From: a virus
IMG/VR virus record: IMGVR_UViG_3300005253_000602
Coordinates: 1 to 30,882 of that record
Strand: one strand, 5' to 3'
Length of the DNA: 30,882 bases
Translations under genes and position numbers: made by a program
Notes under the pieces: model-generated
Told to the model about the DNA's origin: nothing
What the model saw: the letters and a program-made list of their open reading frames with translations, nothing else
The model's database searches: none
Shown here: positions 2,600 through 28,516 of the stretch, one piece after another
Position numbering within the stretch: position 1 is the stretch's first letter
Layout: each line of letters begins with the position of its first letter

Positions 2600-4428
2600 T
2601 GGCTAGTAAACCCAAACACGTAGGAACGGTCAAGATAGGCTCCGAGTCTTACAGCTTAGTAAAAACTGACGAGAGACAGGCTTGGCGAGAGGAGTACCTC
2701 CATGAGCCTCCCTGGACCGAGGGCTTACCTGCGACACTCTCAGCGCCTCAAGAGACGTGGCATCTTGGAGGCCTAAAGTCCAAGCAGGGTATCCCAGGGA
2801 CATCTGAGTTTGGACTCAACACTGATGCCAGGTATCCTTTCCGACTTTTGCCTGGGCCTGCGGTCACTACTATTACTCTCACAGATAGTGCATCTAATCC
2901 CACCAGAATCTTTGAGGCGCTAGGCTACATATGGGTTGTCTGTGGTAGGCGCGTGTTCCGCATTGATCCCTCAGATGACAGCATTGTGGAATCCAAGGAT
3001 TTTGGGGCAGGTGGCACACTAGGTGTCGATGGACTAAAGTGGGAGGATGATACTGGCCTAGTGACCACTGACGACGCCGACCAATCCCTATGGGAGGTCA
3101 CAGCTATAGGCACACCTGACACTTGGGCTCAGGCAGAAGCCGGTGTCAAGGCCTACAGATTGGCCGCAGGTATTGACCGTATGTACGGTGTGGAGGATAG
3201 CGCACTCCTACGCAACTGTGTCTCAGGTCTGGACCCTATGCTTTCTGCTAGTTGGTCTGATGAGATTCAGTGTGGAGAGGTTTCCACTAAGCCCACTGGT
3301 CTACTAGCCTTCGAGAAGACAGCCCTAGTGGGAAAGCCTGAAGGACTCTTTGGCGTGAGTCCTGAAGGCAAAGGTGTACCTCTGATTAAGCGCATGATGA
3401 GGGATGATACCAACTGCTTAGGTATGCATATGCATGAGCCTTACGCGATCATACCTCATAGCAGAGGCGCATATAGATTCGTCCCTGGTCTTGTGGAAAG
3501 CATGGGCATAGAGAAGGAGCTTCTCAATAACAGTGTCATACGAGGCAGATTCAAGGCTTTCGTCACCGACAACCAATGGCTACTAGGGCTTATGCAGGTA
3601 GGCACGGGCATCGGTATCCATGTAGCCAGAGACAGGGCAAGTGGAGAGCCAGGATTTGGCCCTATGATATGGGACACCTTAGTGTTCCTTCTGCTGACAA
3701 CTAGTCAGGCTATGTATATATCCTCACTCACTACTCCTCCTAGAGTGTGGTTTGGCAATGACAACGATATATCCTACATCAAACTCTCATCGAACTCAGC
3801 AGGCGCTCCTGATGTGGGAGGCTCTGACTATGCGTTTGCTGTTGGAGGTTCTCGCTACACCGTCAAGTATGACTTCGGAGACTGGAGAGATAAGGACTTT
3901 CACAAAGTTGTAGTGGTAGGCAGAGGCACACTGTCTGCTGCTAGGTACTGGGATGTATTCTTCAATGTGGATGGCGGGGGTTTCTCTAGCCAGGACATTG
4001 ACAGTAATACCATGAGAGTGAACTCTGACGGCTTACACACCTTCTACTTGCCTCTTACGGCTGTAGGTCGAGAGATTCAGTTCAGACTGGATTTCACAGG
4101 AGACTCTGCCACTGCTCCTCCTGAAATAAGCTACTTTGAGCCCTTTGCAGTACCACAAAGCAAGAAGGTGCCTCTCAATATTGTGCAGTTGCACCTGGTT
4201 GCTGATGAAGTAGATGGTGAAAGGATGGAGGTCAGGACCGCTGCTCAACAGCTAAGTGACCTACACACTCTCGATGAGTCATCCTCACCTCTAAAAGCCA
4301 GTGGACCCTGGGGTGAGAGCAAGGATATGTGGCTCAAGTCCTTAAGTCTAATAGGTGTCATACAGGAGTCTGACGCAGAAGCTGAGTTCCTGGTGGAGGT
4401 GGCGTTGCAGGAGAGGAAAGTGTCTTAG
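2599..4428 (+). CDS. Large phage structural protein, possible beta-propeller tail component
   Basis: A 609-residue protein starting in a TAATG overlap with the gene before it. It is rich in Gly, Thr, Asp and aromatic residues, with repeated short strand-turn patterns across residues 90-480, as expected for an all-beta or propeller protein. There is no signal peptide or membrane segment. Its position between other tail genes fits a tail tube, nozzle or hub protein. No diagnostic motif was found, so the precise role is open. The stop TAG 4426-4428 overlaps the GTG start of the tail fibre gene. Confidence 0.5.
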   Translation: MASKPKHVGTVKIGSESYSLVKTDERQAWREEYLHEPPWTEGLPATLSAPQETWHLGGLKSKQGIPGTSEFGLNTDARYPFRLLPGPAVTTITLTDSASNPTRIFEALGYIWVVCGRRVFRIDPSDDSIVESKDFGAGGTLGVDGLKWEDDTGLVTTDDADQSLWEVTAIGTPDTWAQAEAGVKAYRLAAGIDRMYGVEDSALLRNCVSGLDPMLSASWSDEIQCGEVSTKPTGLLAFEKTALVGKPEGLFGVSPEGKGVPLIKRMMRDDTNCLGMHMHEPYAIIPHSRGAYRFVPGLVESMGIEKELLNNSVIRGRFKAFVTDNQWLLGLMQVGTGIGIHVARDRASGEPGFGPMIWDTLVFLLLTTSQAMYISSLTTPPRVWFGNDNDISYIKLSSNSAGAPDVGGSDYAFAVGGSRYTVKYDFGDWRDKDFHKVVVVGRGTLSAARYWDVFFNVDGGGFSSQDIDSNTMRVNSDGLHTFYLPLTAVGREIQFRLDFTGDSATAPPEISYFEPFAVPQSKKVPLNIVQLHLVADEVDGERMEVRTAAQQLSDLHTLDESSSPLKASGPWGESKDMWLKSLSLIGVIQESDAEAEFLVEVALQERKVS

Positions 4429-27109: not shown

Positions 27110-27129
27110 ATTGTGAAAGATATCACAAT
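27110..27129. promoter_or_regulatory. CRP-like palindrome ATTGTGA-N6-TCACAAT, site 1
   Basis: Perfect 7-base arms with a 6-base spacer. TGTGA-N6-TCACA is the known CRP consensus. It recurs almost unchanged at 27212-27231 with similar flanking bases (TGTC followed by CG-rich DNA). Confidence 0.7.
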
Positions 27130-27211: not shown

Positions 27212-27231
27212 ATTGTGATAGATTTCACAAT
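27212..27231. promoter_or_regulatory. CRP-like palindrome ATTGTGA-N6-TCACAAT, site 2
   Basis: Same arms and spacing as site 1, centred 102 bases away. The spacer differs (TAGATT against AAGATA), so the arms are what is conserved. Confidence 0.7.
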
Positions 27232-27241
27232 GTCGCGGCGC

Positions 27242-27259
27242 TTGTGACGAATTTCACGA
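27242..27259. promoter_or_regulatory. CRP-like palindrome, imperfect site 3
   Basis: TTGTGA-N6-TCACGA, one mismatch from the other sites, centred 29 bases from site 2. Confidence 0.5.
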
Positions 27260-27750: not shown

Positions 27751-27759
27751 TGTTATAAT
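27751..27759 (+). promoter_or_regulatory. Extended -10 promoter TGTTATAAT
   Basis: TG-n-TATAAT is a perfect extended -10 element. No good -35 is present, as is typical for this class. Start of transcription is expected near 27766, the 5' end proposed for the structured RNA. Confidence 0.6.
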
Positions 27760-27765
27760 GGGTGA

Positions 27766-28121
27766 GTCGCCGAGAGGGTGGGTAGCGAGTGGTCGAGTCC
27801 ACTGAGGAGCATCCCAGGGACAATACCTGGGCAACGTGTAGGTGGCCGACGGACAAGGCTGTAGCCTCGGAGCGGCAAGAAATTCTTCCCCGGTGTCCGC
27901 CTAACGGATGGACCGTAAGGTTCAGCGACCAGGCGAACTACAACTGAGGGATACAATTCTTCGGCCCTCCCGGTGGGCTCCCGTACCGCCAATGTAAGTT
28001 CGTGTATACGACGACGGTACTCTGGAGACGGGGGCCCACCGGGGGTGATGTGGTTTGCCCCGGCCGAAAACCCGCAAGGGACATGTCGGGAACCAGGGTT
28101 CGACTCCCTGCACCTCCACCA
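27766..28121 (+). ncRNA. Structured RNA of about 355 nt with tRNA-like 3' end (tmRNA-like candidate)
   Basis: The stretch has no supported gene but is full of hairpins: AGTGG/CCACT (27788-27803), CCCAGG/CCTGGG with a 7-base loop (27813-27831), CGGACA/TGTCCG (27850-27899) enclosing GGCT/AGCC, GGACC-GTAA-GGTTC with a GNRA loop (27910-27923), and a 12-pair helix GGTGGGCTCCCG/CGGGGGCCCACC (27972-28040) enclosing TACCG/CGGTA and TCGT/ACGA. It ends in a tRNA-like domain at 28041-28121 with encoded CCA. Promoter, length and CCA end recall tmRNA, but no proper tag reading frame was found and the 5' acceptor strand lies only 81 nt from the CCA. The 5' end is inferred from the promoter. Confidence 0.55.
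28041..28121 (+). tRNA. tRNA-like acceptor and T-arm domain with encoded CCA (not a standard tRNA)
   Basis: GGGGGTG (28041-28047) pairs with CACCTCC (28111-28117), with one G-U pair. The T-arm is canonical: CAGGG, loop TTCGACT, CCCTG (28094-28110). A discriminator A and CCA end at 28121. Between them, no proper D-arm or 7-base anticodon loop can be drawn. Instead CCCG/CGGG encloses CCC-GCAA-GGG. This matches a tmRNA-type tRNA-like domain, a degenerate tRNA, or an attachment-site copy of a host tRNA/tmRNA end. Confidence 0.55.
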
Positions 28122-28176
28122 ATCGAAAAAGCGAGCCCGTCAGGTGGCTCTGAGCATCCTGACCTCTGACCAAACC

Positions 28177-28213
28177 GGGGGTGGTCATACACAATGGCCC
28201 CCACCATTTTCTT
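28177..28213 (+). terminator. Putative intrinsic terminator after the structured RNA
   Basis: GGTGG (28180-28184) pairs with CCACC (28201-28205), with alternative G5/C5 pairing, followed by ATTTTCTT at 28206-28213. An additional stem GTCAGG/CCTGAC lies at 28139-28163. The stem is short, so efficiency is uncertain. Confidence 0.45.
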
Positions 28214-28224
28214 ACCCCAGGATA

Positions 28225-28253
28225 TTGACATATCAATCGATCCGTGATATACT
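28225..28253 (+). promoter_or_regulatory. Near-consensus sigma70 promoter for the late rightward genes
   Basis: TTGACA (28225-28230), 17-base spacer, TATACT (28248-28253). The start point would be near 28260, only about 10 bases before ATG 28271. It is the best sigma70 match noticed in the window and precedes the fibre and terminase genes. Confidence 0.8.
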
Positions 28254-28270
28254 CCTAGATGTGAAAGCCA

Positions 28271-28516
28271 ATGCCAATTTGGGGACCGAGCTTCCTTGGA
28301 CCCTATGGTAAGCCGCCCGAGCCTTACGGGAAAACTCCCGATACAGGTGGGGCGGTCAAATTTGGTGACCACGAACCCTGGAACGTATTCTGCCCGTGTG
28401 AGAAATGCGTTATCCCGCGTCTCGCATTCCATCGGTGGCGTTACCGGCGCGGACTTCTAACGGAGGACCTCAACGCTCCGAAAAGGACGAAGATTAGCCC
28501 GAAAAAAGGACGGTAA
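28271..28516 (+). CDS. Small protein with Cys pair, first gene after the late promoter
   Basis: 81 residues from ATG 28271, with little or no Shine-Dalgarno and a very short leader. The N-terminus is Gly and Pro-rich (GPSFLGPYGKPPEPYGKTP). FCPCEKC (41-47) may bind metal. The C-terminus is basic. It is followed 6 bases later by the next gene. Not recognised. Confidence 0.55.
   Translation: MPIWGPSFLGPYGKPPEPYGKTPDTGGAVKFGDHEPWNVFCPCEKCVIPRLAFHRWRYRRGLLTEDLNAPKRTKISPKKGR

Follow-up and report, generated by a model that had tools for sequence, protein, structure and literature searches.

What RNA is specified between positions 27766 and 28121 of the viral record IMGVR_UViG_3300005253_000602? 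The stretch analysed (30,882 nucleotides, hereafter the window) had been read by a first-pass annotation as carrying there, behind a perfect extended -10 element, a long structured RNA that ends in a tRNA-like domain with an encoded CCA and that might be a new phage RNA, a rearranged tmRNA or an attachment-site copy of a host gene. The bacterial RNA known as tmRNA frees stuck ribosomes, and trans-translation is the main ribosome-rescue system of bacteria. The analysis supports with high confidence a narrower answer, in which positions 28041-28121 on the plus strand are the tRNA-like domain (TLD) of a tmRNA without its messenger part, here called a mini-tmRNA. The earlier direction towards tmRNA was thus right, while its rearranged, attachment-site and strictly new options were not supported.

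Identity and structure of the 81-nucleotide RNA

The sole match to Rfam (release 15) in the window was to the tmRNA model RF00023, at 28041-28121 on the plus strand (51.9 bits, cut-off 47, E 7e-18), which agrees with the tmRNA reading of the first-pass annotation. The alignment spans model positions 1 to 374 and includes the acceptor, D-loop, helix P2, T-arm and CCA, and 20 nucleotides stand in for approximately 312 model positions that make up the messenger domain and the pseudoknots. Only these 20 nucleotides lie between the P2 strands, leaving no messenger domain, resume codon or tag. The mini-tmRNA shares with standard tmRNA the acceptor with G3-U70, the stemless D-loop, P2, the T-arm, A73 and CCA, but it lacks the messenger domain, the pseudoknots and any resume codon, tag or stop codon, and is 81 rather than 230-400 nucleotides long. 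The features are collected in Table 1.

Table 1. Features of the mini-tmRNA locus in window coordinates
Feature	Position	Strand	Evidence
Extended -10 promoter element TGTTATAAT, predicted start near 27766	27751..27759	+	Exact consensus match
Putative 5' leader of precursor, presumably removed by RNase P	27766..28040	+	Fold z -2.4
Mini-tmRNA (tmRNA tRNA-like domain without messenger domain or pseudoknots)	28041..28121	+	RF00023 51.9 bits; model R1 75.7 bits
Acceptor stem 5' strand GGGGGUG	28041..28047	+	Pairs 7/7 with 28111-28117; G3 of G3-U70 at 28043
Stemless D-loop AUGUGGUUUGC	28048..28058	+	Alignments; GG and UU conserved
Helix P2, 5' strand	28059..28064	+	Covariation at six of six pairs (29 relatives); pairing checked in the window
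Inner hairpin CCC-GCAA-GGG capping P2, GNRA loop	28071..28080	+	Fold
Helix P2, 3' strand	28085..28090	+	Covariation; window pairs checked
T-arm CAGGG-UUCGACU-CCCUG	28094..28110	+	Rfam and relatives alignments
Acceptor stem 3' strand CACCUCC	28111..28117	+	Alignment; U70 at 28115
Discriminator A73 and encoded CCA	28118..28121	+	CCA itself at 28119-28121

Several details noticed earlier find their place in this structure. The absence of a supported gene between 27766 and 28121, the canonical T-arm and the encoded CCA were all borne out, and the GNRA-loop hairpin proved to be the inner hairpin capping P2, a comparable version of which can be formed in 44 of 49 longer relatives (a weak test). The acceptor 5' strand does begin 81 nucleotides before the 3' end, because 81 nucleotides are the whole molecule. 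The D and anticodon arms had been described as missing; this holds for the anticodon arm, since tmRNA has none and carries helix P2 instead, but a D-loop is present, of the stemless tmRNA type (GATGTGGTTTG in the window, one base short of the usual UUCGAC). When the 81-mer is folded alone, the acceptor pairs have predicted probabilities of at least 0.99, and the predicted minimum is 0.5 kcal/mol more stable than the canonical structure. A 12-pair helix proposed to end directly before the acceptor partly draws on G bases that also form the acceptor 5' strand, and the two compete in the folding model.

The Rfam score is insufficient on its own, because a bacterial tRNA-Ala also passes the gathering score (locus L130, 1501-1575, 48.4 bits), and the case therefore rests on the relatives and their covariation. 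That a tRNA-Ala passes the tmRNA model is also a caution for automatic annotation. As for the window RNA itself, ARAGORN finds no ordinary tRNA, nor is a cloverleaf with a D-stem and an anticodon arm present. The same program makes a doubtful call of a permuted, two-piece tmRNA at 28029-28402 with the tag VKANANLGTELPWTLW. Such a rearranged gene could draw on a second GGGGGUG downstream, near 28177, but the permuted Rfam model reaches only 29.7 bits (cut-off 47) and the TLD closes on itself in the normal 5'-3' order with seven of seven acceptor pairs, which makes a permuted gene highly improbable.

Relatives, covariation and alanine identity

Relatives were sought in 2.9 million viral contigs with degenerate patterns; inspection of the matches removed tRNAs, permuted tmRNAs and chance hits, and isolates found by BLAST were added. 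The resulting collection comprises 58 distinct mini-tmRNA sequences in 30 clusters, all from phage or viral contigs, with lengths mostly of 62-83 nucleotides and only a handful at 91-118; several relatives checked individually against Rfam scored 53-73 bits. A model built from 29 relatives (R1) gives the window 75.7 bits, the window itself being one of the 29. The exact T-arm/acceptor pattern of the window had no match in viral contigs; a pattern built on its own P2 and inner loop gave none either, nor did blastn of the window stretch against phages.

The covariation that the first-pass annotation had suggested looking for in homologous phages was found: in the 29 aligned sequences, two-sided changes occur at six of the six P2 pairs, with further covariation at acceptor pair 5 and at the three outermost pairs of the T-stem. 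Over the whole structure there are 154 cells with two-sided changes compared to 54.7 in shuffles, and the covariation score is 0.552 compared to 0.130 in shuffles and at most 0.16 in slid controls, although the aligned rows are unequally related and the shuffle counts should not be taken as probabilities.

The pair G3-U70 is kept in 58 of 58 sequences while pairs 4, 5 and 6 vary, but U70 was fixed in every scan pattern and G3 in some, so that most of this count is no test of the pair. More telling cases are the pattern with a free 5' strand, in which each genuine mini-tmRNA recovered has G3, and the BLAST-found isolate phages, all eight of which keep G3-U70 even where pairs 4-6 are replaced, as they are in several (GGGUUUG/CAAAUCC in BRock and Tomas). 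The discriminator is A73 in 53 of 53 relatives, at a position left unconstrained in two of the pattern scans; CCA is encoded in 16 of the 53.

These results bear on the suggestion that the locus is an attachment-site copy or a decayed fragment of a host tmRNA. Genes for tmRNA are common integration sites (PMC11915505), and phage LilSpotty has a weak match beside an integrase; however, the window holds a whole TLD with both ends and a complete 5' half, covariation is strong across the 29 relatives, and no integrase or resolvase (tyrosine or serine recombinase) was found in the record, which is possibly incomplete, or in two long relatives. A copy of this kind is accordingly very hard to credit.

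The leader and its surroundings

The perfect extended -10 reported at 27751 is present as described, and the window contains three such elements where 0.46 would be expected by chance. The claim of a long structured RNA stands in part: the leader is modestly structured (fold of 27765-28040, z -2.4, with 3 of 200 shuffles equally stable; z -2.85 for leader and mini-tmRNA together, 27765-28121), but no relative of it was found. Comparison by blastn with relatives and phages gave no significant homologue, and 27766-28040 had no Rfam match at gathering score, including GOLLD, ROOL and other large phage RNAs. Another carrier, locus L008, has a TATAAT followed by approximately 210 non-coding nucleotides before its mini-tmRNA; its leader aligns to that of the window with a score of 40, where shuffles reach 46, and no relationship is shown.

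It is possible to read these data as a long functional RNA in which the leader does the work and the TLD serves as a 3' processing signal (RNase P cutting at 28041) or as a stable 3' end. The fold of the leader, the similar arrangement in L008, and a leader hairpin that covers the acceptor 5' strand in the folded precursor (pair probability 0, compared to 0.99 in the mature RNA) would agree with this reading. It is nevertheless improbable, given that leader homologues were not found, that the two leaders align no better than shuffles, that many mini-tmRNAs are without a long leader and either abut a stop codon or lie inside tRNA arrays, and that the covariation falls within the TLD. A role for the 275 upstream nucleotides as part of the functional molecule is therefore not supported. 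Under the preferred reading, a TLD-only tmRNA cut from a precursor, the predicted pairing of the leader with the acceptor strand could delay maturation, or it could reflect a limit of the folding model.

Other elements of the surroundings are recorded here as separate observations. One intergenic stretch holds the only three TGTGA-N6-TCACA palindromes in the window (27112-27127, 27214-27229 and 27243-27258, one of them mismatched), which are operator-like. Just past the mini-tmRNA, ahead of rightward genes, lies a strong promoter-like TTGACA-17-TATACT with TG (28225-28253).

Possible role and distribution among phages

The proposed sequence of events is that a transcript would start at 27766, that RNase P and 3' trimming would cut out the mini-tmRNA, that host AlaRS would charge it with alanine through G3-U70/A73, and that host SmpB and EF-Tu would bind it. 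It might then become a competitor of host tmRNA for SmpB and stalled ribosomes, and either block the host pathway or hand its alanine to the nascent chain, leaving the chain untagged; since resume codon, tag and stop codon are all missing, it cannot complete trans-translation. A search of 19 records identified no SmpB gene, so that host SmpB would be used. This account draws on the sequence, structure, covariation, alanine-identity elements and phage distribution observed here, from which we infer processing, charging, SmpB binding and a benefit to the window phage. Taken as a whole, from processing to competition with host tmRNA, it is the probable one, and we lean, with much the same or very slightly less assurance, towards inhibition or subversion of trans-translation as the outcome.

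Published comparisons support parts of this account. SmpB contacts the TLD elbow, and alanyl-TLD with SmpB and EF-Tu binds the stalled ribosome (4ABR, PMC3968760). A 'TLD only' tmRNA is reported for mycobacteriophage DS6A (tmID 11587; Mao 2009, Williams 2014; PMC4131195), so that the window RNA is not, in the strict sense, the novel type of tRNA-like RNA that had been suggested. Of 97,179 sequences, nine are counted as standard tmRNAs devoid of a coding part, with DS6A named as the phage case (PMC11915505). The window RNA is likewise a TLD without a coding part in a phage genome, a likeness of description, but it belongs to a different phage lineage and has 81 nucleotides with P2 capped by a GNRA hairpin. 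Inhibition of tmRNA was reported for the DS6A type of molecule (Mao 2009, cited in PMC4131195, PMC11915505), and a TLD-only molecule of this type reportedly inhibits E. coli tmRNA strongly whether chargeable or not, perhaps by titrating SmpB (PMC4131195, PMC11915505). Competition with host tmRNA is favoured for this reason. Because the reported inhibition needs no charging, the retention of G3-U70 and A73 would be left unexplained if the RNA acted as an SmpB sponge alone. So strictly kept an alanine identity suggests some further contribution from charging, either EF-Tu delivery to the ribosome or a conceivable tag-less transfer of the nascent chain.

The latter might amount to active rescue, in which the peptidyl-alanyl-TLD drops off and is hydrolysed, so that ribosomes are freed and phage proteins stay untagged. 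Strict conservation of alanine identity would suit such a rescue factor, but we know of no release step that works without a stop codon. Mitochondrial tmRNAs without a tag frame do persist alongside SmpB (PMC11915505), whereas the effect reported for such a molecule in E. coli (PMC4131195, PMC11915505) is inhibition, and tag-less rescue appears rather unlikely. The jakobid mitochondrial tmRNA and the tag-less plastid tmRNAs of approximately 65 bp (PMC11915505) have also lost the messenger region; they are organellar and the mitochondrial ones usually permuted, whereas the mini-tmRNA is phage-borne and in standard order. Full-length phage tmRNAs (Streptomyces phage Tomas, SlimJimmy, Bxz1) are phage-borne too, but they keep the tag frame and pseudoknots. 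Tomas (L067) is awkward for simple inhibition, since it carries both a diverged mini-tmRNA (1976-2056 of L067) and a full-length tmRNA approximately 9 kb away (97147-97421).

Isolate carriers include the Streptomyces phages BRock, LuckySocke, GiJojo, pSt2308, Shaeky and Tomas and the Stenotrophomonas phage Jojan60; the isolate copies are located within or next to clusters of tRNA genes, and none is annotated as RNA. A stricter pattern with CCA required, scanned over 84,980 bacterial and archaeal species genomes, gave no true mini-tmRNA (three chance or tRNA matches), and model R1 applied with strict pre-filters to 397 genomes of one bacterial phylum gave only two matches, both tRNA-Ala (43-44 bits). 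The class looks phage-borne, with absence from bacteria only partly covered by these scans. Close relatives of the window phage (L046-L056, G001, G002) have neither mini-tmRNA nor leader, and the window shares no gene with other mini-carrying loci at E 1e-4. Because of this, and because two long relatives lack it, the mini-tmRNA is regarded as an accessory gene in the window phage. Host prediction from the DNA polymerase of this phage returned only distant matches (approximately 28% identity).

In the literature covered, a TLD-only tmRNA was already known and singled out for one phage, DS6A; the breadth of the class, the covariation and the conserved alanine identity appear to be new. Across unrelated phages the RNAs fall into at least 30 sequence clusters, most of them lacking annotation; their structure covaries and their alanine identity is invariant. 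It is a tentative proposal, with slightly less than even chances, that mini-tmRNAs form a widespread, selected class of phage RNA needing alanylation, as charged decoys or tag-less rescue RNAs and not mere SmpB sponges. If this is true, phages of many hosts take control of ribosome rescue through charged mini-tmRNAs. Isolates with culturable hosts (BRock, LuckySocke, Jojan60) make both the routine disabling or rewiring of rescue and the role of charging testable, and the model and motif can be used by annotation pipelines.

Further observations concern individual loci. The upstream stop codon abuts the mini-tmRNA in L033, L074, L079, L080 (a 390-aa gene) and L113 (a 639-aa gene), and also in L070, L078, L110 and L115; either the last base of a TAG stop doubles as G1 of the mini-tmRNA or the codon finishes immediately ahead of G1. 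Where the G is shared, an RNase P cut at G1 would remove the stop codon, giving a non-stop mRNA beside a tmRNA mimic. In Streptomyces phage Alone3 (L120, close to LuckySocke), a copy at 1178-1257 has broken P2 and T-stem pairs and is apparently decaying. Type II hammerhead ribozymes lie approximately 1.3-1.5 kb downstream of the mini-tmRNA in L002, L003, L004 and L005, the last with two. Mycobacterium phage SlimJimmy (L068) contains an unannotated full-length tmRNA and GOLLD RNA at 1624-2035 and 2805-3218.
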